Assembly: GCF_004804335.1 (NCBI RefSeq)
Contig: NZ_SRXY01000001.1
Coordinates: 372,001 to 436,000 of the forward strand
DNA length: 64,000 nt
Reading direction: 5' to 3'
DNA from: Pacificoceanicola onchidii
GTDB taxonomy: Bacteria > Pseudomonadota > Alphaproteobacteria > Rhodobacterales > Rhodobacteraceae
Notes under the pieces: generated by a model
What the model was told of the DNA's origin: nothing
What the model saw: only the letters and a program-made list of their open reading frames with translations
Database searches by the model: none
Part shown: one piece after another, positions 11,316 to 29,566 of the stretch
How positions within the stretch are numbered: the first letter of the stretch is position 1
Layout: every line of letters begins with the position of its first letter
Translations under genes and position numbers: made by a program

Positions 11316-11615
11316 CTACCCCCGCCGCGCAATCTCGATCCGCGCTTCCAGAAGCGACATATCCGACAACAGCCGTTTGCGCTCCGTCCGGTCCGTCGTC
11401 TCGCGCAACTCTTCGCGCAAACGCGCCAGCTCCCGGCTCAGGGCGACCACCTCCGGCACCGCCCCGTTGTCCTTCAAAATCCGCACCATCACGGCGTTTT
11501 CGGGATCATCGCAAGGCGGCAACGGCTTGCCCGCACCGGGCAAATCATCAAACGCGCCGTCCTCTTCGGCGGCGCGTATCTTGGCATTGATCAGGTCAAT
11601 CAGCGGGTGGTCCAT
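11316..11615 (-). CDS. DUF1992 (DnaJ homologue subfamily C member 28-like) protein
   Basis: 99 residues, starting MDHPLIDLINAKIRAAEEDG, followed by FDDLPGAGKPL, the hallmark of DUF1992. The rest is a charged helical region (RELARLREELRETTDRTERK). Cytoplasmic; function unknown in bacteria. It lies 73 bp upstream of the methyltransferase on the same strand. Confidence 0.85.
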   Translation of the reverse strand: MDHPLIDLINAKIRAAEEDGAFDDLPGAGKPLPPCDDPENAVMVRILKDNGAVPEVVALSRELARLREELRETTDRTERKRLLSDMSLLEARIEIARRG

Positions 11616-11680
11616 GGCCGCAAAATGCCAGAACCACCCGTTAAAAACCAGTCAATCGCTCGAGATTGAGACTGCAACAT

Positions 11681-11714
11681 AGGTTCGCACCCGGCCTCGA
11701 GGGCGGGGTTCGCC
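11681..11714. repeat. Intergenic repeat, outer arm A
   Basis: Segment AGGTTCGCACCCGGCCTCGA and on to 11714, centred on the palindrome CCTCGAGG. Its reverse complement recurs almost unchanged at 12678-12706 on the other side of the FMN reductase gene. Confidence 0.75.
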
Positions 11715-11772
11715 AAATGCATAACCATACCTTCAATGCACTTGTGGTACGCACACTCACATCGTCCCGCCA

Positions 11773-11830
11773 TTTCGCACCCGCCCTGGGGGGCGAGGTC
11801 GGGTGCGAACCGGATCGGCAAGCGATCCGG
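11773..11830. repeat. Intergenic double-hairpin repeat, inner arm B
   Basis: Two successive hairpins: TTCGCACCCG (11774-11783) with CGGGTGCGAA (11800-11809), then CCGGATCG (11810-11817) with CGATCCGG (11823-11830). It is repeated in inverted orientation with about three differences at 12559-12617. The second hairpin alone also occurs at 29823-29844. REP/BIME-like organisation. Confidence 0.8.
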
Positions 11831-11864
11831 GGGAAGGAACCGATACGGTTGCCAAAGCCAAAAA

Positions 11865-12413
11865 CTAGGCCGCCACCGGCAGAAGCTTGGTCAACACGTC
11901 GTCCAGCTTGGCCAGATCCACATGCGAGGTGAAGGAGCCCGTCTCCGCGTCCCACGCCTCACCCCAGTTGCCAAAGCCCTGCACGCCCACAAGCTCTGCC
12001 GCGTAGAACCCGGCAATCGCCTCCTGTCCGGCCAGCACATTGGCCCCGGCGCGGCCACCCGGGCTGGCCGAAAGCATGACAACCGGCTTGCCCTGCCAGA
12101 CCTTGAATTCCACCCGGCTCATCCAGTCAAAGATGTTCTTCCACGCCGCGGGCACGCCGCCATTGTGTTCCGGGAAAGCGATCACAACCGCATCCGCGCC
12201 GCCGATCAAGGCCAGCAGATCCTTGGCCAGCTGCGGCACACCGTTCGCCGCTTCGCGATCGGACGAGTAGATCGGCATCTCAAAATCGTTGATATCCACG
12301 ATCTCGACGGTCACAGCGGGATCCGCCGCCGTCAGCCGCGCCGCGGCAAGGTTTATCAGGGCACGGTTGATCGAAGAGCTACTGTTGCTTGCGGGAATTG
12401 CGAGAATGTTCAT
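11865..12413 (-). CDS. NADPH-dependent FMN reductase / flavodoxin-fold oxidoreductase
   Basis: 182 residues, flavodoxin-like. N-terminal FMN phosphate loop IPASNSSSSINRAL, central FPEHNGGVPAAWKNIFDW (flavin contact) and SASPGGRAGANV are diagnostic of the NADPH-dependent FMN reductase/azoreductase family. Start ATG at 12413. The gene is bracketed by inverted repeats (11681-11830 and 12559-12706). Its upstream region carries several TGCAC-type inverted motifs, suggesting control by a small-molecule-responsive repressor; that is inference. Confidence 0.88.
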   Translation of the reverse strand: MNILAIPASNSSSSINRALINLAAARLTAADPAVTVEIVDINDFEMPIYSSDREAANGVPQLAKDLLALIGGADAVVIAFPEHNGGVPAAWKNIFDWMSRVEFKVWQGKPVVMLSASPGGRAGANVLAGQEAIAGFYAAELVGVQGFGNWGEAWDAETGSFTSHVDLAKLDDVLTKLLPVAA

Positions 12414-12528
12414 GTCTGTGTCTCCTGTGTCGGCGCGGGGCGGGAGGGACCCGCGCCTTGCGTCTTGTTCTGAGGAGAAGATGGGGGAGAGTGAATTTGC
12501 ACACAATGGAGATTTATGTACAGTGCAA

Positions 12529-12542
12529 GTGCAAAAATGCAC
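12529..12542. promoter_or_regulatory. Inverted repeat upstream of FMN reductase
   Basis: GTGCA-AAAA-TGCAC, a perfect 5-bp-arm palindrome about 115 bp upstream of the FMN reductase start. TGCACACA also occurs nearby at 12498-12505 and 12538-12545. Candidate repressor site. Confidence 0.4.
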
Positions 12543-12558
12543 ACATTTGAGTTATACT

Positions 12559-12617
12559 CCGGATCGCTTGTCGATCCGGTTCGCGCCCGACCTCGCCCCT
12601 CAGGGCGGGTGCGAAAT
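12559..12617. repeat. Intergenic double-hairpin repeat, inner arm C
   Basis: Inverted copy of 11773-11830: CCGGATCG/CGATCCGG (12559-12579) followed by TTCGCGCCCG/CGGGTGCGAA (12580-12615). Confidence 0.8.
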
Positions 12618-12677
12618 CGACCCGTTTCGGGAAACTGTGATGTTTGGTCTATGAAGAAAAGACGGTGCAAGCATCAT

Positions 12678-12706
12678 GGCCCGCCCTCGAGGCCGGGCGC
12701 GAACCT
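12678..12706. repeat. Intergenic repeat, outer arm D
   Basis: Reverse-complement partner of 11681-11714 (GCCCTCGAGGCCGGGCGCGA core). Between this and the MmgE/PrpD gene (12707-12974) I see GC-rich sequence without a supportable gene. Confidence 0.75.
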
Positions 12707-12974
12707 ACCGTTTTCCGATATCCATACTCAGAAGTCGCACCACCCCCCCTAAAGCCCCCCAGCAATACGCCTCAAACCATACAGCCGTTCCGCACGGCGG
12801 CACGCCGGGCAGCGCCTGCCTGCCCCCCGGCAGGCGCTTCAAACCGGTTCGACCCTGCGGCCCCATGCGCCTCTGCCTGAAGGCCCGCCTTTGTCTCCCA
12901 ATCGCACAAGCGCCTGCCCAGGCCGGCGCTGCCCTCGACGCACTCATACATCGCCGCGCGGCTGAGCCCCCGGA

Positions 12975-14297
12975 TCAACCGGCGCTCACCAAAGGACGCG
13001 CCATACCCGTCATCACCGCCTCGACAGAGCCGCCCTCCGCCAACGCGGCCACAGCCTCCCGCAAGCCCCGCGCCGCCGTCAGCCCCAGAACCGGCCCCGC
13101 CAGCCCGTCAAACTTCTCTGCAATGCCTTCCGCCGAGACAGGCGCTTCCGGGTCGCCCCGCGCCTCCGTCACCTCGGAGGCAAACACCCTTCCATCCGCC
13201 AAGGTCACATGCACTACCGCAAAACGCCGCGCCGGAAAGGCCGCGTCAAACTCTGCGCGCTGCACCGCCGTCACTTTCCGCGCCAAAGCCACGATCTCCG
13301 GATCGCCAAAGCCGTCCGCGCTGACCTCTGCCACGCCAATCGTTCCCCGACACAGCGCCGCCGCCACGGAAAATGGCAGCGAATACTGCGCCTGCTCCGT
13401 TGTCTCCGGCAGGGCGCTCAGCCGCGTCGCTTCGTGAAACGTCTCCACCTCAACCGCCGCAACCTGCTGATAAGACAGTTTATAATCGCGCACCAATTGC
13501 AGGACCGCCTCCACCGCAGGCTGCGCCCAACGGCACACCGGGTAGAGCTTGATGTACTGCTCGTGGATATACCATCGCTCGCCCAAATCCGCCCAGACCG
13601 GGCCTTGCAATGTCTCCGCCGGCGCGCCGGTAAAGCCGTCCCGTGCCAGATAGCCCGCAGATACCCCCGCCATTGCGCCCCAGCCCGAGCCGTCCTTGAC
13701 CATGGTCGGATGGTCGATACAGCGCATCATGGGCGAGCGCGGACCGTGGTACTCCGCAATCCCCACAGCGTCCCGCGTCTGCCCCGCATTCAGCCCCAAG
13801 GCGCGCGCGGTGATCGCCGCACAGGCCAGCGCCACCCAGGCGCCCGAGGTGTGATAATCCTTGGCCGAGGCGTGCAGCGCGATCCCGGCGCGCGTGCCGA
13901 TCTCGTATCCGATGGCGATCCGGGTCAGCAGTTCCGGCCCCGAACAGCCCTCCGTCGTGGCCAAAGCCGCTGCAACCACCCCGCAGCCCACATGCCCCTT
14001 TGTGGGCTTCGAGCCGTCATGGGCATCGAGCGCATCGGTGGTCATGCCATTGGCCAGCGCAGCCCCTGCGGGCGAAACCCTGCGCCCGTCCTGCCAGAGC
14101 AAAGCCCCTGCCCCCGTCCCGGCGGCGAAGTGCTCCAGCACATGATCCTTGATAATCCGTGACAGCTCCGTGCGCGAGGCCGCCACGGCCACCCCCAAGG
14201 TATCGGTCAACCCTCTGACAGCATTCGAAATAACCTGCTCCGGCAGATCTTCGAACTGGGTGTTCAGGGCAAAGTCGATGGGGTCATTATTGGGCAT
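12975..14297 (-). CDS. MmgE/PrpD family protein
   Basis: 440 residues. Family pattern: NAVRGLTDTLGVAVAA near the N-terminus, ANGMTTDALDAHDGSKPTKGHVG, IAIGYEIGTRAGIALH, KLYPVCRWAQPAVEAVL. Members include 2-methylcitrate dehydratase and cis-aconitate decarboxylase, but no methylcitrate-cycle gene is nearby, so the substrate is unknown. I chose ATG 14297 (MPNNDPIDFAL), where family similarity begins; the frame stays open 25 codons further upstream. It stands alone on its strand, downstream of the VOC gene. Confidence 0.85.
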   Translation of the reverse strand: MPNNDPIDFALNTQFEDLPEQVISNAVRGLTDTLGVAVAASRTELSRIIKDHVLEHFAAGTGAGALLWQDGRRVSPAGAALANGMTTDALDAHDGSKPTKGHVGCGVVAAALATTEGCSGPELLTRIAIGYEIGTRAGIALHASAKDYHTSGAWVALACAAITARALGLNAGQTRDAVGIAEYHGPRSPMMRCIDHPTMVKDGSGWGAMAGVSAGYLARDGFTGAPAETLQGPVWADLGERWYIHEQYIKLYPVCRWAQPAVEAVLQLVRDYKLSYQQVAAVEVETFHEATRLSALPETTEQAQYSLPFSVAAALCRGTIGVAEVSADGFGDPEIVALARKVTAVQRAEFDAAFPARRFAVVHVTLADGRVFASEVTEARGDPEAPVSAEGIAEKFDGLAGPVLGLTAARGLREAVAALAEGGSVEAVMTGMARPLVSAG

Positions 14298-14392
14298 GGC
14301 GCGGCCTCCGGGCTGGTCCCAGTGTTCCGCAGCGAAACCGGATCCTCTAGGCCAGTCGCGACATCTGGCCATGCCTTCCGCGACAGGTTTTT

Positions 14393-14740
14393 CTAGTCGC
14401 AGAAGACGTGAAACTCATGGCCCATGAAGTCCGTCACCGTGAACTGCCGCAGGCCCCATGGCTCCTCTTTCGGCGGGCCCGAAAGCGTCGCGCCAAGGGC
14501 CTCAAACGCGGCAAAAGCCCCGTCCACATCGGCGCTGAACATCCACAAAACCACCGGCGTGATTGGCCCGTCCGTCTCGCGGAAAAACAGCGCGCAATCG
14601 CCCCGGCTGACCGCCCCGATCCGGCCCTCTTCGTGGTGCCAGCCGATCTCGAAACCAAAGCAATCGCGATAGTATTCCTGCGCTTTTCGCACATCCCGCA
14701 CGGGCAGTTCCGGGGTGGGCTGGGATAGGGTCAACGTCAT
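14393..14740 (-). CDS. VOC-superfamily (glyoxalase/bleomycin-resistance-like) protein
   Basis: 115 residues with the paired beta-alpha-beta-beta-beta modules of the vicinal oxygen chelate fold: PELPVRDVRKAQEYYRDCFGF, LFFRETDG, and the C-terminal FTVTDFMGHEFHVF. The reaction cannot be assigned. It lies upstream of the MmgE/PrpD gene on the same strand and is divergent from the GNAT gene. Confidence 0.85.
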   Translation of the reverse strand: MTLTLSQPTPELPVRDVRKAQEYYRDCFGFEIGWHHEEGRIGAVSRGDCALFFRETDGPITPVVLWMFSADVDGAFAAFEALGATLSGPPKEEPWGLRQFTVTDFMGHEFHVFCD

Positions 14741-14825
14741 GGATCACTCTGTCTCACGGGTCCTGAGCCTAAGGGCGCAGGGTAAGGTTTGCACGCCTTT
14801 CCCGGCATGGGAGCCTGCGCTAGGT

Positions 14826-15368
14826 ATGAGTGCGATGCTTATCGAGACCTTCTCCACCCCCCGCCTCATCGTCCGGCACTGGCGCTCCGATCTGGCGGCT
14901 CCTTCGGCCCGCGCGGCTCTGGAGGCGGCGCTCTCAAGCGTGCTGACCCCGCCCGTTCTGGCCCATCTGCCACCCTCGATGCAGCTTTCCTCAGGCCCGC
15001 AAGGCATCGGCTGCTGGATCGACGCGCGGCAGGCGGAGAGCACGGTTTTCGTGATCGAAACACGGGCCGAAGTCACGCTGGCCGGGCTGCTTATCCTCGC
15101 CCCGGATCAATGCAACCCGGAGGCCCCAACGGTCCATATCGGATACCTGCTGGCCCAGAGCGCCTGGGGTCAGGGCTATGCCTCGGAACTGGTCGCCGGG
15201 CTGGTCGAGGCCTGCCAGGCCCATGCCCCGCTCAAGCTGGTGGGCGGGGTCGATCTGGGCAACCCGGCCTCGGCCCGTGTGCTGCTGAAAGCCGGGTTCG
15301 CGCTGGAGCCTGAATACTCCTCGGGGGGGACGGCGATCTATGGGCGGGAAATTGCGGTTACGGGGTAG
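14826..15368 (+). CDS. GNAT-family N-acetyltransferase
   Basis: 180 residues from ATG 14826 (MSAMLIETFSTPRLIVRHW). RimJ/RimL-like: ETFSTPRLIVRHW at the N-terminus, IGYLLAQSAWGQGYASEL (acetyl-CoA pyrophosphate loop), and NPASARVLLKAGF at the C-terminus. Substrate unknown. Start uncertain: the frame is open to 14715 and the ribosome site is weak. Confidence 0.82.
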   Translation: MSAMLIETFSTPRLIVRHWRSDLAAPSARAALEAALSSVLTPPVLAHLPPSMQLSSGPQGIGCWIDARQAESTVFVIETRAEVTLAGLLILAPDQCNPEAPTVHIGYLLAQSAWGQGYASELVAGLVEACQAHAPLKLVGGVDLGNPASARVLLKAGFALEPEYSSGGTAIYGREIAVTG

Positions 15369-15590: not shown

Positions 15591-16970
15591 ATGGCAAACG
15601 AAGAGTATCGTATTCACTACGAAAAACGCGAAGACGTAGTGTTTCCCTCCAAATCGGGGATGAAGCGGTATCTTTCGGAAGAACTCAAGAGATGGATACA
15701 CTTCCTTGATCATATGCGAGAAGGCTTCGCTCTGAGTATTAACGCCTTTCAAGGCCGACGCGCTCTGACGCCTGAGCAACAAGCAACAGCATTTAACTCC
15801 TTGATGGATCTGCTGGAATACCGGGAAGAATTCAATCGAAGAACAGTAAATGCCGGAGGCGGTCCTGTTTTACCGCCTCCGTCTGACAGCCTTGAAGGAC
15901 AACTGATCCTAGGTTTGTTTGAAGGCGACCGGACCGCAGAAGCTATGGCAGTCTACGTGTACTTTGTAGCAAAAAACAGTAGAGCCAAATACGCGGATAA
16001 CGATCAAATTGGACGAATGGTGCTGAAAGGCAGAATCCTAGCCGATGCTGCTACCGTGACGGCTGCGCTGCCCTATAGCCGTGTCTCCTCATCGAAGATG
16101 GCAAGAGCTGTCCGAAATGCAGAAAACCATGTCCAATCATTGGCAGACGAAGTTGTCGCCGCTCAGGAAATCAATGCAACACACGAGTCTAAACTGGAAT
16201 CGAACCTTGCTGAGCAAAGGCTAAATGCAAAGCGGATCAATGACGTGGTTTTGAGGCTCAATCGGAGACGGGACCGACAGCATAAGAAGTTGGTCAATAG
16301 TATCGAACAATTGTTCGAAGAGCGATTTGAAGAAACTCGCGTCAGGATCGGAGTATTCGAACTCAATAACCAACGCGCTGAGGAACAGCGGGTCGATCGT
16401 TTCAATAACTTGCAGGAGCTCTTCCGAGCACAACTACGGCTACGTGCACCTGTCGAACTATGGGACAAACGCGAAACCAACCACAGACGGAATTCAAAGG
16501 CCGCTATGAAATGGCTTTTGGGTATCGGTGGTATTGCTATCGTATTCGGCCTGAGTGTCCCGGTCTTTGGCGGGGACTATATTGCAAACAGTTTTTCGCA
16601 AGTTATTTGCCAAACGCCGGGAAGCGATGCCACTGCTCCTCAAGGCTGTCAGCGTGAATTCTCGGCGAAAGGGCCCGTCACCATAACAGGTCTGCTGCTC
16701 GTAATGTCTTTGTTGATGTGGATGGCACGCCTTCAATACCGAGTCTACCTCAGCGAACGTCATCTGGCTCTTGATGCCAGCGAAAAGAAAGCGTTTGCCG
16801 AAACCTACCTCGCGATGAAAGAAGGCAAAGACGTGGGCGACGATAGTGAAGCGATTGTTCTGGCATCGCTTTTTAGGCCTACGCAAGACGGCATTATTCG
16901 CGATGATGAAGCGGGAATGGATCTCTCTGCGGTATCGCAGATGGCCAAACAACTCAGTCGAAATGGTTAG
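15591..16970 (+). CDS. DUF6161-like membrane protein
   Basis: 459 residues. Long charged, mostly helical N-terminal part with coiled-coil character around residues 180-280 (AENHVQSLADEVVAAQE..., RRRDRQHKKLVNSIEQLFEE). Two hydrophobic segments follow near residues 304-324 and 361-380, then a cytoplasmic tail ending with LFRPTQDGIIRDDEAG, a block I associate with DUF6161. Codon use and AT content differ visibly from neighbouring housekeeping genes, which suggests transfer. It is flanked by non-coding gaps and has no operon partner. Function unknown; a stress or defence role is only a guess. Confidence 0.7.
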   Translation: MANEEYRIHYEKREDVVFPSKSGMKRYLSEELKRWIHFLDHMREGFALSINAFQGRRALTPEQQATAFNSLMDLLEYREEFNRRTVNAGGGPVLPPPSDSLEGQLILGLFEGDRTAEAMAVYVYFVAKNSRAKYADNDQIGRMVLKGRILADAATVTAALPYSRVSSSKMARAVRNAENHVQSLADEVVAAQEINATHESKLESNLAEQRLNAKRINDVVLRLNRRRDRQHKKLVNSIEQLFEERFEETRVRIGVFELNNQRAEEQRVDRFNNLQELFRAQLRLRAPVELWDKRETNHRRNSKAAMKWLLGIGGIAIVFGLSVPVFGGDYIANSFSQVICQTPGSDATAPQGCQREFSAKGPVTITGLLLVMSLLMWMARLQYRVYLSERHLALDASEKKAFAETYLAMKEGKDVGDDSEAIVLASLFRPTQDGIIRDDEAGMDLSAVSQMAKQLSRNG

Positions 16971-16995: not shown

Positions 16996-17080
16996 GGGAA
17001 AGTCCGACCTGGCGAGGGCATTTCCTGCATCAAGCCTTTGAGAACGGGTGGACTTTCAGGGTGATCCGGCCGTCCGCGTC
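16996..17080 (-). pseudogene. Decayed copy of the 5'-nucleotidase 3' end and terminator
   Basis: On the minus strand this encodes DADGRITLKVHPFSKA and a stop, matching the real gene's end at 17557 (TDGRITVKE, stop, then SFSKA in frame). Shared DNA includes ATCAAGCCTTTGAGAA and GGTGATCCGGCCGTCCG, plus GCGAGGGC-TTTCC of the terminator loop. It is separated from the intact gene by a dispersed repeat. Confidence 0.65.
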
Positions 17081-17153
17081 CATCTTGTCGCCGGCGCTGA
17101 CCGTGAGCAGCGCCAATGTCGAAATTTGCCTGAAGTGCTCATTGAACTAACCC

Positions 17154-17395
17154 GTCCCGGACCTGATCCGGGATCTCACGACCGGAGCGCAAGCCGCGCC
17201 GTCATGCTGGAAGCATGTCTCCGACATGACGGGCCGTGGCATGGCGATGCTCCCTCAGATCCCCTCGATTTATCCCAGCCACTGGTGCGCTAGCTAAGCA
17301 TAGCTCCCAGCGACAACCCAATCGCCGTGCCGGGGGGCGGCCCGTCGATGGCGCGGCGGCCTGCGGCCTTGATTCCGCGCCGGTGGTGAGTGGAA
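17154..17395. repeat. Dispersed intergenic repeat, copy 1
   Basis: Starts with the palindrome GTCCCGGACCTGATCCGGGA and contains ATTTATCCCAGCCACTGG, AATCGCCGTGCCG and GGCGCGGCGGCCTGCGGCCT. Related copies are at 33833-34046 and, inverted, at 43130-43445. No gene is supportable between 16971 and 17556; this repeat, the tail remnant and a terminator fill it. Confidence 0.8.
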
Positions 17396-17503
17396 TGTCC
17401 GCTTCAGGCCACTTGCGCCAAGCTCGACCAACACCAATCCAGAACAGTGAGGACGCGCTCCGGGCATGCGCTGCAGGGCAGTCCAAAGACCGCTTTCCAC
17501 GCG

Positions 17504-17532
17504 AAAAGGCCCCCGCTGATGCGAGGGCCTTT
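17504..17532 (-). terminator. Rho-independent terminator of 5'-nucleotidase gene
   Basis: Stem AAAGGCCC/GGGCCTTT with a GC-rich loop, T-tract on the minus strand (GGGGGCCTTTTCG), about 25 bp beyond the stop codon. Confidence 0.75.
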
Positions 17533-17556
17533 CCCATATCAAGCCTTTGAGAAAGA

Positions 17557-19119
17557 TTACTCTTTCACGGTGATCCGGCCGTCCGTGTAAGGCGTGTAGG
17601 GCGCGTTGGCGGCGATGAATTCTGCCGCTACGTCCGCGAGGTCCGGGCCGAAGTCGTAGGCGTTGGCGGCGTCCACGAACATCTTGTAGCCGTCGCCACC
17701 GTTGCGCACATAGTTGTTCGACACAACGCCGTAGACCTTCTCCATGTCGATCGGCGCGCCGCCGACCATGACGCCGGAGATGCGGCTGCCTGCCTCTGCC
17801 GAGGGATCGACGGTGTAGGACATGCCTGCGACCTGCGGGAAGCGGCCTGCGCCCTCTTCCATCTGGCTCACGCCGTTCTCAAGGGCCGCGACGATGGTGG
17901 CGCCGGAGACCTCGAAGGTGGAGAGCGTGTTCTGGAACGGCAGTACGGTCAGCACCTCGCCCATGGTCACTTCACCCGCGTCGATGGAGGCGCGCAGACC
18001 GCCGCCGTTCTGGATGGCGATCTCGATGCCCTGATCCTTCACGCGGTCCAGCATGGCGTCGGCGACGAGGTTGCCCATCGGGCATTCCACGGCGCGGCAG
18101 ACCGAGCGGTCGCCTTCGATGGCCTCAGCCGTTTCGGCCACGACCTTGGCGCGCATCTCTTCGAGCGGCTGGGCCAGTTCGGCAACGCGGGCCACGGTGG
18201 CGGCATCCTCGGCCACGGAGGCGTCGAGCAGTTTCGGCGCGCCGGTGAGCGCGGTCAGGTTGCCGTCGTCGTCAAAGGTGACGTTCACTTCGCCCAGGTA
18301 CTTGCCGTAGGCGTAGGCCTGCAGGATCGGCACGTCGTTCTGGATGGTCGGATAGGGGCCCTTGGCGCGTTCCATGTCGCCCAGAAGCGTGTGGCTGTGG
18401 CCGCCGATGATCAGATCGACGCCGGAGACTTCATCGGCGAGGCGCTTGTCGGCGGGCAGGCCCACGTGGGTGAGCAGGATGATCTTGTTCACCCCATCGG
18501 CGGTGAGCGCGTCCACTTCGGCCTGGGCCGCGCTGACGATGGAGGAGAAGATCACCGTCTCGCCGGGCGAGGAGGTCTCGGCCGTGTCTTCGGCCAGAAC
18601 CGAGATCACGCCGATCTTCTGACCGCCCGGTTCGAGCACCACGGATTTCGCCACGCGGCCTGCCAGCATGTTGTTCTGGCTGACGTCGATATTGGCGGAG
18701 AGGACCGGGAATTCCACGAGATCGAGGAAGTCGGAGAGGCCTTCGGGGCCTTTGTCGAACTCGTGGTTGCCCACGGCCATGGCGTCATAATCGAGCGCGT
18801 TCATGAACTCGGCAGCGAGCGCGCCGCCGTATTGGGTGAAGAACAGCGAGCCCTGGAACATGTCACCCGCGTCGAGCAGCAGGACGTCACCGGGGGCGGC
18901 GGCCTTGGCGTCGTTGATGGCGGTGACCATGCGGGCGATGCCGCCGAAGCATTTGCCCTCGGCGTTATCTTCGGCGCGGCAGGTCGAATCATACTTCGAG
19001 ATCGGCTCGAAGCGATCGTGGAAGTCGTTTGTGTGCAGGATGGTCAGCGAATAATCCGCGCTGGCCACACCGGCGACGAGGCTCAGCGCGGCAGCGCTGG
19101 TCATCAAACGGAGCGACAT
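17557..19119 (-). CDS. Periplasmic 5'-nucleotidase / UshA-type metallophosphatase
   Basis: 520 residues. Signal peptide at residues 1-21 (cut after VASA). Calcineurin-like metal motifs: LHTNDFHDRF, LLLDAGDMFQG, AVGNHEFDKG, LLTHVGLPAD and IIGGHSHT. The C-terminal nucleotidase domain (about 320-510) has QNGGGLRASIDAG and the substrate-stacking region NNYVRNGGDGY. It hydrolyses nucleotides in the periplasm to nucleoside and phosphate. Start 19119 has GAGAGGT upstream. A decayed duplicate of its 3' end lies at 16996-17080. Confidence 0.9.
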   Translation of the reverse strand: MSLRLMTSAAALSLVAGVASADYSLTILHTNDFHDRFEPISKYDSTCRAEDNAEGKCFGGIARMVTAINDAKAAAPGDVLLLDAGDMFQGSLFFTQYGGALAAEFMNALDYDAMAVGNHEFDKGPEGLSDFLDLVEFPVLSANIDVSQNNMLAGRVAKSVVLEPGGQKIGVISVLAEDTAETSSPGETVIFSSIVSAAQAEVDALTADGVNKIILLTHVGLPADKRLADEVSGVDLIIGGHSHTLLGDMERAKGPYPTIQNDVPILQAYAYGKYLGEVNVTFDDDGNLTALTGAPKLLDASVAEDAATVARVAELAQPLEEMRAKVVAETAEAIEGDRSVCRAVECPMGNLVADAMLDRVKDQGIEIAIQNGGGLRASIDAGEVTMGEVLTVLPFQNTLSTFEVSGATIVAALENGVSQMEEGAGRFPQVAGMSYTVDPSAEAGSRISGVMVGGAPIDMEKVYGVVSNNYVRNGGDGYKMFVDAANAYDFGPDLADVAAEFIAANAPYTPYTDGRITVKE

Positions 19120-20061: not shown

Positions 20062-20158
20062 ACAAGACTCCCCAAAAGGTTGTAAGTGTAGACTCTGTTT
20101 GGAGAAATTCCCAAACCCTGTTAACCTCTTCCCAGTCTTTATGTGTGAGGGCATTGTT

Positions 20159-20821
20159 TTGAAATTATTCTTACTTGCGACGGCATTTTCAGCCGCAGCA
20201 GCCTGTGCGCAGGCGGCGACGACCTATTACACCGATTTACCAAGCTACGCCGGGGCCACAAACGGCACCGCCCCACTCACGCTGGAACATTTTGAAGAAC
20301 TGCCCGCGTCGTTCAACGGCGTTCCGACGCAAACCTATGGCTGGGGCACGGTTTCGGAGACCGGCGGCACCAACGCGGTCTATGCACATGAGTGGAACAA
20401 CCTGACGCCCTATTCCACCAATCCGGTGGCGGATGGCGACGGGGCGATCTGGTACAGGCAGAACGCCGGCAGCATCCTGACCTTCACGTTCCTCAGCCCG
20501 ATCACCGCCTTTGGCGTGTTCCTCAACAGCACGACGCAGGACGCGCTGTCGATCACCAATGGTGACTGGACGACCTCCTTTGTGCCGGGAACCGTGGTTC
20601 TGCCCGGTGACGTCAGTGACCCGACCTTCTGGGGCGTGGTCAGCGACACCGCCTTCAGCACCGTGTCCTTCACCACGGTATCGGGCGCGCATGTGAGCTT
20701 TGACTCGCTGAAGTTCGGCAATCTCAGCCAGGTGCCGGTCCCGGCCTCCGGCCTGCTGCTCATGGGCGGGCTTGGCGCACTGGTCCTGCGGCGGCGCAAG
20801 CAAAGCCAATCGGACGCTTGA
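20159..20821 (+). CDS. VPLPA-CTERM (exosortase-type) secreted protein 1
   Basis: 220 residues when started at TTG 20159, which gives MKLFLLATAFSAAAACAQA, a clean signal peptide, with GAGGG 7 bp upstream; the ATG at 20141 has no ribosome site. The C-terminus has VPVPASGLLLMGGLGALVLR then RRRK, the tripartite signal, hydrophobic helix and basic tail of VPLPA-CTERM sorting domains. The body is a beta-rich domain of unknown function; SDTAFSTVSF recurs in protein 3 (27056) as SDTAFTSVSI, so these two are related. Confidence 0.85.
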   Translation: MKLFLLATAFSAAAACAQAATTYYTDLPSYAGATNGTAPLTLEHFEELPASFNGVPTQTYGWGTVSETGGTNAVYAHEWNNLTPYSTNPVADGDGAIWYRQNAGSILTFTFLSPITAFGVFLNSTTQDALSITNGDWTTSFVPGTVVLPGDVSDPTFWGVVSDTAFSTVSFTTVSGAHVSFDSLKFGNLSQVPVPASGLLLMGGLGALVLRRRKQSQSDA

Positions 20822-24546: not shown

Positions 24547-24896
24547 GATCACAAATCCCCCTGCTGCGTCTTGTTTTTAACGCTTCTCGCTTATGGACTA
24601 TACTGATAGCAAATCGTTTGCGAAACCGGCAACTTCGCGGAAAAACCATGATTTGCAGCAGTTTGCGCCTTTCTGGGCGGGGCAGCATTGCGAAAGACGC
24701 GGGATTTCGCGCATTGAGCCGCGCTTGGGGCCCTTGCGGCGCTGCGGCGATTCGGCGCTGCTGCGGGTCAAAGCCGTTAGCGCCAACGCAAGCCGGGCTT
24801 TGCGCTTTGGTCGAATCTGGCGCGGCGCGGGGTTCGCCAAAGCCGCAGGATCGCCTAAGAGTGATCCCGCGTGCAGCCCGCCCGCAGAGAGGTGCC

Positions 24897-26793: not shown

Positions 26794-26891
26794 GGGCGTG
26801 TCTCTTCTGTTCCGGTGCGCCGGTGACTTTAGCCGACCCGAAGCGCAGGACAATCGAGAAGTGGTGATGGCAGGCATAACGGGCAGGCATG

Positions 26892-26922
26892 AAAAAAACC
26901 CGCGGCCAGAGGAGGCCGCGGG
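26892..26922 (-). terminator. Terminator, second copy of the rpsA terminator
   Basis: CCCGCGGCC/GGCCGCGGG stem with a seven-base T-tract on the minus strand. Nearly identical to the terminator at 27833-27863. It now serves the VPLPA gene at 27056. Confidence 0.8.
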
Positions 26923-27020
26923 TCCGATTGATCGGGGATGTGCCCCGGTCTTGTTCGTAGCCCTTGAGCGCTGCGCCTGTGGCGGTTTCAGAGGCAAGAC
27001 TGGCCTGTTCTCTGGAGGCC
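26923..27020 (-). pseudogene. Decayed copy of the rpsA 3' end
   Basis: The minus strand reads ASLASETATGAALKGYEQD, matching the real RpsA end ASLGDILGAALKGDK; GCCCTTGAGCGC and the following CCCCGGTCTT match at DNA level, as does the adjoining terminator. No start or further rpsA sequence is present, so it is a remnant. The intact gene lies about 870 bp away, on the other side of the VPLPA gene 27056-27718. Confidence 0.7.
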
Positions 27021-27055: not shown

Positions 27056-27718
27056 TTACCCTTGCCGCTTTTTCCGCCGTTTCAGCAAAGCCAACGCACC
27101 GACACCGGCCATCATCAGCGGCAGACCGGCAGGCAGAGGAACAGGGGCGACATTGCCGCCGAACCGCACGTTGTCGAACAAAATGTAGTCCGAGCCGGCT
27201 GGGTTCAAAATCGAAACAGAGGTGAACGCGGTGTCGGAGACGAAACCGTGGAACTGCAGCGGATCTCCGAAAGACGCCGTCGCTGAATCGCCATTCGAAA
27301 ACTGGAGGGTTGCACTGCCTCCAAACCGGCGGATGGTCGACAGTTCAAATGCAAACGATGTGATCGCGGACGAAAAATTGATCACAACATTCGCACCGCG
27401 CTCCGCGTGGTAGACGTTTCCTGTTCCCCGGTCGTAATAGGTTGGATAATACGCTGGCGCGATGACCGCCTGATAGGTGCCGCCTGTTACCGTGAACGTC
27501 GCATCACCAATGCTGAATCCGGCAACGTCTCTTGTGCTCCAGACATTCGTTCCGGCCGTCAGGCCAGCAAAAGAGCTGCCTTCAAAATCAAGCAGAGTTG
27601 TCGATGAGGTCGCGGACGCAAAGCTGGCCAGATCGCTGTAACTTGCCAGGGCCGCCTCGCTCTGGGTTGCAAACCCGAAAAAACCGGTTGCCGCAGCGAT
27701 CAAGATCGCAGTCTTCAT
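27056..27718 (-). CDS. VPLPA-CTERM secreted protein 3
   Basis: 220 residues. Signal peptide MKTAILIAAATGFFGFATQS, cut after SEA. Mature part includes LLDFEGSSFAGLTAG, an FEG-like beta-domain start, and SDTAFTSVSI, shared with protein 1. C-terminal VPLPAGLPLMMAGVGALALL then KRRKKRQG. Strong GGAGG before the start at 27718. The gene lies between two copies of the rpsA tail and terminator, which suggests it was inserted there. Confidence 0.87.
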   Translation of the reverse strand: MKTAILIAAATGFFGFATQSEAALASYSDLASFASATSSTTLLDFEGSSFAGLTAGTNVWSTRDVAGFSIGDATFTVTGGTYQAVIAPAYYPTYYDRGTGNVYHAERGANVVINFSSAITSFAFELSTIRRFGGSATLQFSNGDSATASFGDPLQFHGFVSDTAFTSVSILNPAGSDYILFDNVRFGGNVAPVPLPAGLPLMMAGVGALALLKRRKKRQG

Positions 27719-27832
27719 GTTTTCCTCCAAGAAAAGATCGCAAAAAATGGGTATCGGTTGACGAAAATCAGAAACGCAGCGTAGCACCGATGCGCTTGTC
27801 GATCAATTCTGCCGATCTGACGACAAGACATG

Positions 27833-27863
27833 AAAAAACCCGCGGCCGGGGAGGCCGCGGGTC
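27833..27863 (-). terminator. rpsA terminator
   Basis: CCCGCGGCC/GGCCGCGGG stem with a six-base T-tract on the minus strand, about 25 bp after the rpsA stop. Confidence 0.85.
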
Positions 27864-27889
27864 CGTTAGATCGGGAATTGACCCCGGTC

Positions 27890-29566
27890 TTACTTGTCGC
27901 CCTTGAGCGCCGCGCCGAGGATGTCGCCCAGCGATGCGCCTGCATCGGAGGAACCGAACTGTTCCACGGCTTCTTTCTCTTCGGCGATTTCGCGTGCCTT
28001 GATCGACAGACCCAGACGGCGGGTCTTCATGTCGATGTTGGTCACGCGCACGTCGACCTTGTCACCGGCGTTGAAGCGCTCGGGGCGCTGCTCGGCACGG
28101 TCACGGGAGAGATCGGAGCGGCGGATGAAGGACTTCATGCCTTCGTATTCCACTTCGATGCCGCCGTCTTCGATCGCGGTCACTTCGACGGTCACGATGG
28201 AGCCGCGCTTCACGCCGCCGGTCGCATCCGCGAACTTGTCGCCGCCCAGTGCCTTGACGGAGAGCGAGATGCGCTCCTTCTCGACGTCAACCTCGGAGAC
28301 AACCGCCTGAACGATGTCGCCTTTGCGGTATTCCTGGATGGCTTCTTCGCCGCGCTGATCCCAGCTGAGGTCGGAGAGGTGCACCATGCCGTCGATCTCG
28401 CCGTCGAGGCCGATGAACAGACCGAATTCGGTGATGTTCTTGACTTCGCCTTCGACCTGCGTGCCCTCGGGGTGTGTTTCTGCAAACACTTCCCACGGGT
28501 TGCGCTGGGTCTGCTTGAGACCGAGGGAAACGCGGCGCTTGGAGCCGTCGATTTCCAGAACCATGACGTCCACTTCCTGGGAGGTGGAGACAATCTTGCC
28601 CGGGTGCACGTTCTTCTTGGTCCAGGACATCTCGGAGACGTGGACCAGACCTTCGACGCCCGGCTCGAGCTCAACAAAGGCACCGTAATCGGTGATGTTG
28701 GTAACGCGACCCTTGTGCACGGAGGCCAGCGGGTACTTGGCGCCAACCAGATCCCACGGATCTTCCTGCAGCTGCTTCATGCCGAGGGAGATACGGTGAG
28801 TCTCTTTGTTGATCTTGATGACCTGAACCTTCACCGTCTCGCCGATCGAGAGGATCTCGGACGGGTGGTTCACACGGCGCCATGCCATGTCGGTCACGTG
28901 CAGCAGGCCGTCAACGCCGCCGAGGTCGACAAATGCGCCGTACTCGGTGATGTTCTTGACGACACCGTCCACAGCCTGACCTTCGGTGAGGTTGGCGATG
29001 ACTTCGGCGCGCTGTTCGGCACGCGATTCTTCGAGAATCGCACGACGCGAGACAACGATGTTGCCACGGCGACGGTCCATCTTGAGGATCTGGAACGGCT
29101 GCTTGAGACCCATGAGCGGGCCTGCGTCGCGCACGGGGCGGACGTCAACTTGCGAACCGGGCAGGAAGGCCACGGCGCCGCCGAGATCGACGGTGAAGCC
29201 ACCTTTGACACGGCCGAAGATCGCGCCTTCGACGCGGGCGTCGTCTGCGTATGCTTTTTCCAGGCGGTCCCAGGCTTCTTCACGGCGCGCCATCTCGCGG
29301 GAGATGACAGCTTCGCCGCGGGCGTTCTCTGCGGCGCGCAGGAACACTTCAACCTCATCGCCAACAGCGATTTCAGGGGCTTCGCCGGGGTTTGCGAATT
29401 CTTTGAGCTCAACGCGGCCTTCCATCTTGTAGCCGACGTCGATGATGGCCTGGCCCGCTTCGATCGCGATAACCTTGCCTTTAACGACAGTGCCCTCATC
29501 GGGCGTGTCCATTTCGAGGCTCTCGTTCAAGAGGGCTTCGAATTCTTCCATTGTTGCATTTGCCAT
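27890..29566 (-). CDS. rpsA: 30S ribosomal protein S1
   Basis: 558 residues with six S1 RNA-binding repeats, each recognised by GxVxxIxxxGxFVxL-type blocks (e.g. VVKNITEYGAFVDLGGVDGL, VTNITDYGAFVELEPGVEGL, VKNITEFGLFIGLDGEIDGM). Brings mRNA to the small ribosomal subunit. ATG 29566 (MANATMEEFEALLNESLEMD) agrees with alphaproteobacterial S1; an ATG at 29578 also follows AAGGA closely. The 325 bp between this start and irr hold the promoter region and one hairpin repeat (29819-29848). Confidence 0.97.
   Translation of the reverse strand: MANATMEEFEALLNESLEMDTPDEGTVVKGKVIAIEAGQAIIDVGYKMEGRVELKEFANPGEAPEIAVGDEVEVFLRAAENARGEAVISREMARREEAWDRLEKAYADDARVEGAIFGRVKGGFTVDLGGAVAFLPGSQVDVRPVRDAGPLMGLKQPFQILKMDRRRGNIVVSRRAILEESRAEQRAEVIANLTEGQAVDGVVKNITEYGAFVDLGGVDGLLHVTDMAWRRVNHPSEILSIGETVKVQVIKINKETHRISLGMKQLQEDPWDLVGAKYPLASVHKGRVTNITDYGAFVELEPGVEGLVHVSEMSWTKKNVHPGKIVSTSQEVDVMVLEIDGSKRRVSLGLKQTQRNPWEVFAETHPEGTQVEGEVKNITEFGLFIGLDGEIDGMVHLSDLSWDQRGEEAIQEYRKGDIVQAVVSEVDVEKERISLSVKALGGDKFADATGGVKRGSIVTVEVTAIEDGGIEVEYEGMKSFIRRSDLSRDRAEQRPERFNAGDKVDVRVTNIDMKTRRLGLSIKAREIAEEKEAVEQFGSSDAGASLGDILGAALKGDK

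Follow-up and report, generated by a model that had tools for sequence, protein, structure and literature searches.

How did a housekeeping gene come to be followed, beyond about 440 bp of unrelated DNA, by a degraded second copy of its own 3′ end? The question is raised by a 64,000-nt stretch of the genome of Pacificoceanicola onchidii (hereafter, the window), in which a sequence-only reading had noted a direct repeat involving the end of a 5′-nucleotidase gene. This gene codes for 520 aa from its likely start (the mechanical ORF extends to 19185; the stop is at 17557) and shows 57-70% identity to orthologues in 22 relatives. The gene and the two copies of its end are arranged as follows:

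17557..19119, minus strand: 5′-nucleotidase gene (PF00149 and PF02872, both over cut-off)
17521..17588, minus strand: attached repeat copy, comprising the last 10 codons, the stop, the 3′ flank and the first terminator arm
17509..17538, minus strand: intrinsic terminator of the 5′-nucleotidase gene (hairpin of -26.9 kcal/mol, z -4.98)
17090..17430, unstranded: dispersed repeat (element A); the block present in most copies spans about 17151-17411, and some copies reach 17095 or 17090
17012..17079, minus strand: displaced copy, a gene end without a stop codon and with one terminator arm only

Self-BLAST of the window confirmed the direct repeat, aligning 17012-17079 with 17521-17588 at 56 of 68 bases (82.4%, E 3.9e-12), while a repeat search of the window framed it as 95 nt at 74%. 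The alignments also confirmed that the reading frame is conserved, with T-D-G-R-I-T-V-K-E-stop in the gene and A-D-G-R-I-T-L-K-V in the displaced copy, where the stop codon is lost and the frame continues to a later TGA. Part of the terminator matches, as had been proposed, but the matching part is one arm of the stem and not the loop, and the displaced terminator stretch folds no better than its shuffled versions (z +0.40). The view of this copy as a displaced and decayed gene end, with its stop lost and one terminator arm left, is therefore borne out. Followed in the direction of the gene, the order is the gene’s own terminator, a spacer, the dispersed repeat and the second gene end (17079-17012), so that the dispersed repeat does lie between the copies.

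The secure similarity has its limit at about 17080. A profile built from the C-termini of 101 relatives detected no longer 5′-nucleotidase remnant upstream of that point, and a weak DNA match between the region upstream of the displaced copy and an inner part of the gene was equalled by 6 of 500 shuffles and is not relied on; a longer remnant was thus discarded. Neither could the copy be assigned to the end of another gene, since its frame, 38 residues long, matches nothing in the rest of the genome (next E 0.94), on plasmids or in Pfam. In the genome as a whole, the displaced stretch finds the two known copies and then only a 31-base match with an E of 0.001, and no further copies of either of the two gene ends duplicated in the window were found above background deeper in the inserted DNA.

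The claim that a second housekeeping gene in the window, rpsA, shows the same order proved real. Its relevant features are these:

27826..27916, minus strand: attached rpsA end with its terminator (-24.6 kcal/mol)
27059..27718, minus strand: VPLPA-CTERM protein gene between the rpsA copies (TIGR03370 over cut-off at window positions 27068-27142, G000:C1:399068-399142)
26885..26977, minus strand: displaced rpsA end, stop lost and terminator intact (84% identity over 93 bases; -25.6 kcal/mol, z -4.97)

Here the displaced terminator has lost no stability relative to the attached one, and the VPLPA gene reads straight into it. A displaced end “plus terminator”, as suggested for both genes, is accordingly found intact at rpsA and broken at the 5′-nucleotidase gene. 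The full order of gene end, terminator, insert, and displaced end with terminator is present, but in neither window case does the displaced end close the insert: additional inserted genes follow it before the ancestral neighbour is reached.

The search for more gene-end repeats in the genome, which the same reading had called for, yielded one further case, at the 3′ end of a gene for a class-I glutamine amidotransferase (PF00117) on contig C4, where positions 2738-2772 and 2320-2354 of locus L196 agree at 34 of 35 bases. These copies are 418 bp apart, and the intervening 383 bp contain an open frame of 43 residues as well as a stretch resembling a hairpin. A non-homologous insert thus separates the copies in all three cases, measuring about 440 bp (5′-nucleotidase), 850 bp (rpsA) and 383 bp (amidotransferase); judged by its 34 of 35 matching bases, the amidotransferase case appears to be the younger one. 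Nothing found in 40 relatives exceeds about 43% identity to the protein encoded by this gene.

To gauge how common such repeats are, we scanned for direct repeats no more than 6 kb apart (E <=0.01) in which one copy spans the stop codon of a predicted gene coding for 80 residues or more; because gene calls followed a crude frame-composition rule, the gene-end counts are approximate. The window holds two gene-end cases among five repeats, and their joint presence in a single 64-kb window is a post-hoc observation. Sixty stretches of 20 kb (1,085 genes, 114 repeats) yielded only the amidotransferase case, and 40 further stretches of the genome (756 genes, 25 repeats) yielded none. The total sample of 2.0 Mb and 1,841 predicted genes, about 40% of the genome, thus contains one case; it is a non-random sample, picked in part around VPLPA genes, and the single case comes from such a stretch. 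No bare tandem copy of a gene end was flagged anywhere in these 2.0 Mb.

Among 80 loci from relatives (1.02 Mb, 1,017 genes), two were flagged, both containing tandem arrays rather than copies set apart. In the 5′-nucleotidase gene of Mesobaculum littorinae (L069, 7555-7933), the last five codons, stop included, form together with the terminator a 118-bp unit present in 3.2 tandem copies, while in Wenxinia saemankumensis (L061, 12424-13146) an array with about 420 bp between copies starts within the end of a gene of 699 residues. When the 5′-nucleotidase tail was scored against its own downstream 6 kb, the window reached 76, and 87 of the 88 relatives’ tails remained at or below 39 with the same scoring, the sole exception being the M. 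littorinae array of gene end and terminator (98); the rpsA tail of the window reached 110, with none of 36 relatives’ tails above 39. These tail scores and the E value of 3.9e-12 rule out chance as the origin of the 5′-nucleotidase repeat. A narrow search of the literature found no description of copies of a gene end with its terminator. Overall, gene-end cases are rare, giving no indication of a busy process. A different kind of duplication was seen at L140, where two 87-base copies (254-340 and 399-485), 95% identical, form a tandem that resembles tRNA genes.

If the gene ends were separated by insertion, relatives should retain uninterrupted junctions, and this gene order does exist in them. 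The features on the far side of the 5′-nucleotidase repeat are:

15591..16970, plus strand: DUF6161-domain gene, part of the inserted DNA (PF19658 over cut-off; third-position G+C 0.49)
11865..15368, unstranded: rest of the inserted DNA, with FMN reductase, MmgE/PrpD, glyoxalase-fold and GNAT genes (Pfam matches)
11316..11615, minus strand: ancestral next gene, with a DJC28_CD domain (PF09350 over cut-off; gene order and gaps)

In the one congener compared (G001), the genes run rpsA, ihfB and, further on, 5′-nucleotidase and the DJC28_CD gene. The gap between the latter two is 105 bp in the congener versus 5,942 bp here, and that between rpsA and ihfB is 288 bp versus 3,338 bp; the window has the longest gap among the 19 junctions compared in the first case and among the 42 in the second. 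Both junctions vary among relatives: the gap between 5′-nucleotidase and the DJC28_CD gene ranges from 70 to 2,480 bp in 18 relatives’ loci, and that from rpsA to an ihfB-like gene from 196 to 1,823 bp in 41, being at most 371 bp in 25 of them, with the proviso that several loci are short and some of the longer rpsA gaps may run to another HU-like gene. Just upstream of ihfB, positions 24597-24670 are 86% identical to the rpsA-ihfB spacer of the congener, so native sequence resumes there, with the displaced rpsA end about 2.2 kb within the insert. At the other site, about 5.4 kb of further inserted DNA extends beyond the displaced 5′-nucleotidase end.

The inserted genes have few counterparts. 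At an E of 1e-5, no relative of the FMN reductase, MmgE/PrpD, glyoxalase-fold, GNAT, CPT-like kinase, two VPLPA or GST proteins was present in 119 relatives’ loci, and the one relative of the DUF6161 protein was in L341, a locus taken because of that gene. The DUF6161 gene, which has an unusual composition, is matched in 8 of the 295 family genomes searched, a count that includes its own genome; it does not appear to be a 5′-nucleotidase companion elsewhere, since its best relative (G106, 43%) has no other window gene within 14 kb. Among 394 family genomes, with two candidates scored per genome, the cargo DNA has remote matches only (in 118 and 43 genomes, own included), which are at most about 70-79% identical for any stretch longer than 100 bases. 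No integrase was recognised by Pfam or NCBIfam among the inserted proteins tested, although one may have been lost. The FMN reductase gene is flanked by members of a second dispersed repeat family in inverted orientation (11675-11832 and 12559-12708), which share 59 bases at 95% and have more matches on several contigs of the genome.

The proposal of a common insertion mechanism associated with VPLPA genes found no support. Over cut-off, 35 VPLPA-CTERM matches are present in the genome and 7 of these fall within the span of the window. Only 1 of the 30 VPLPA loci examined (that of rpsA) has a gene-end repeat around its VPLPA gene; the amidotransferase pair of L196 lies about 740 bp beyond the VPLPA gene of that locus. 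Two other repeats near such genes were set aside: the direct repeat at L194 contains no gene end, and that at L190/L200 corresponds to the sorting-signal region that neighbouring VPLPA genes have in common. Elsewhere in the window (20099-20821), a VPLPA-type gene separates two genes that in the congener are direct neighbours, with no visible gene-end copy.

Whether the displaced ends are decayed duplicates or divergent alleles can be judged from the differences between copies. All four differing codons at the 5′-nucleotidase end and three of four at the rpsA end change a residue or the stop, and the only differing codon at the amidotransferase end is silent. As the coding differences mostly alter the protein or its stop, they appear to reflect decay after loss of coding use rather than an allele kept under selection in a donor, and the 34 of 35 bases shared in the third case suggest that the copies were nearly identical at the start. 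Comparison with five relatives is divided: at positions -5, -3 and -1 all five carry the base of the attached copy, and at position -30, one of six differing coding positions, all five carry that of the displaced copy. The 3′ flank common to both copies is absent behind the gene in relatives, where matches of the displaced stretch to 5′-nucleotidase loci fall on the coding end; the duplication is therefore probably younger than the split from the relatives compared.

The duplication, its decay, the insert separating the copies and a spacing in excess of that in relatives are established; that duplication and insertion coincided, like the choice of enzymes, is an inference. We tentatively favor an origin in which host repair or recombination inserted DNA and duplicated the gene end in a single event. 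DNA would be added just behind a gene, with its end being duplicated simultaneously. Template switching by polymerases offers one route: a polymerase might copy past the gene end, switch template and return upstream of that end. Alternatively, one-sided recombination might occur with DNA of a very close relative having the same gene end. Either way the gene itself would still end intact and with its terminator, the spare end, having dropped out of the gene’s translation, would decay, and further genes could be added beyond it, breaking its terminator, as may have happened behind the 5′-nucleotidase gene. A single event is suggested by the insert found in all three cases together with the lack of any bare tandem copy in 2.0 Mb, by the location of both window cases at junctions whose gaps are small in the congener and largest here, by the near-identical start and later decay of the copies with a 3′ flank unmatched in relatives, and by the failure to recognise an integrase among the inserted proteins tested. 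We nevertheless put it forward with caution, since there are only three cases, their joints bear no diagnostic signature, and position -30 agrees with all five relatives.

A close rival, and one with a substantial chance of being right, is a succession of two steps, in which slippage first made a tandem copy of gene end and terminator, with later insertion of either the dispersed repeat or the VPLPA gene between the copies. Such duplication without an insert exists at the orthologous gene of M. littorinae, with its 118-bp unit repeated 3.2 times, which makes duplication first and insertion later possible, and a longer tandem array in Wenxinia has its start within the end of a different gene. 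A second unit should, however, have left its spacer, and none is detectable: the similarity between the stretch following the terminator and that behind the displaced copy is equalled by 322 of 500 shuffles, and the stretch behind the gene’s terminator has no match in the inserted DNA. Two events would moreover be required at each of three sites, and no bare tandem copy of a gene end was flagged in the 2.0 Mb scanned. A horizontal seam, in which the 5′-nucleotidase end of a diverged donor arrived with the extra genes through a homologous joint on one side and none on the other, would account for a displaced end that borders extra genes and for the base at -30 shared with all five relatives, and the process, homology-facilitated illegitimate recombination, is documented both for naturally competent bacteria and for E. 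coli conjugation (PMC3240628). We regard it as unlikely, because an allele under selection in its donor should differ mostly silently, whereas seven of the eight differing codons in the two window cases change a residue or the stop, and because a donor-like arrangement was not seen in the 394 family genomes, two candidates being scored in each.

Mobile elements fare worse. An integrase-bearing element might have used the 3′ end of the gene as its attachment site, supplied an end of its own and displaced the old one, losing the integrase later; an intact end on the gene with a displaced fragment some way off does resemble the familiar signature of such integration. The displaced ends, however, are not at the far edge but inside the inserted DNA, with about 5.4 kb (5′-nucleotidase) and 2.2 kb (rpsA) of it beyond them, the pairs enclose only about 440, 850 and 383 bp, and the inserted proteins tested include none recognised as an integrase; gene-end replacement of this type is therefore disfavored and seems quite improbable. 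We give still less credence to the dispersed repeat as a transposable element that makes long target duplications. The displaced copy does adjoin an end of element A, since 17095-17135 belongs to a long form of the element that is found in a few copies, in both orientations. Yet of its 40 scored places in the genome only the window copy has a long flank repeat, and this repeat does not abut the element on the gene side; the other own-flank scores fall within the range of mixed pairs, the next best (25) being reached by 2.9% of these. A transposon with target-site duplication should have short direct repeats of fixed length against both ends at many copies, a pattern that a long flank repeat at a single copy does not match; the rpsA and amidotransferase pairs do not enclose element A. 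With a flank repeat at 1 of 40 copies, the dispersed repeat is rejected as the cause, and the suggestion of an insertion mechanism common to its copies is unsupported.

Known systems resemble these loci in part. Homology-facilitated illegitimate recombination, or additive integration, adds DNA beside a homologous stretch through one homologous and one non-homologous joint, and may duplicate a piece; it differs in that there is no known donor here and the copies would have been near-identical at first and then decayed. The M. littorinae slippage array shares the same unit (last codons, stop and terminator) at an orthologous gene, but its units lie head to tail with no insert, while here about 440 bp separate the copies. 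Elements that integrate into the 3′ end of a protein-coding gene leave it with an intact end and a displaced fragment downstream. This likeness holds at our loci, in contrast to which such elements would be expected to show an integrase, more than a tiny enclosed segment, and the fragment at the far edge.

Most likely, the displaced copy is a scar of insertion, neither a functional element nor a new kind of element; the scar is real but minor, and ordinary as biology. The lineage might in addition have some recurrent mode of insertion in which the preceding gene has its end and terminator copied, so that the added gene obtains a ready terminator, an idea prompted by the VPLPA gene reading into a displaced rpsA terminator that stayed intact while the displaced coding end decayed. 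We consider this very doubtful: it would, if true, account for the avoidance of read-through by added genes, but the counts obtained here do not support a general process, and only the intact displaced rpsA terminator behind the VPLPA gene deserves another look. Duplicated gene ends are nonetheless readable scars of DNA added behind housekeeping genes, and they are a warning against taking such repeats for the attachment sites of mobile elements.
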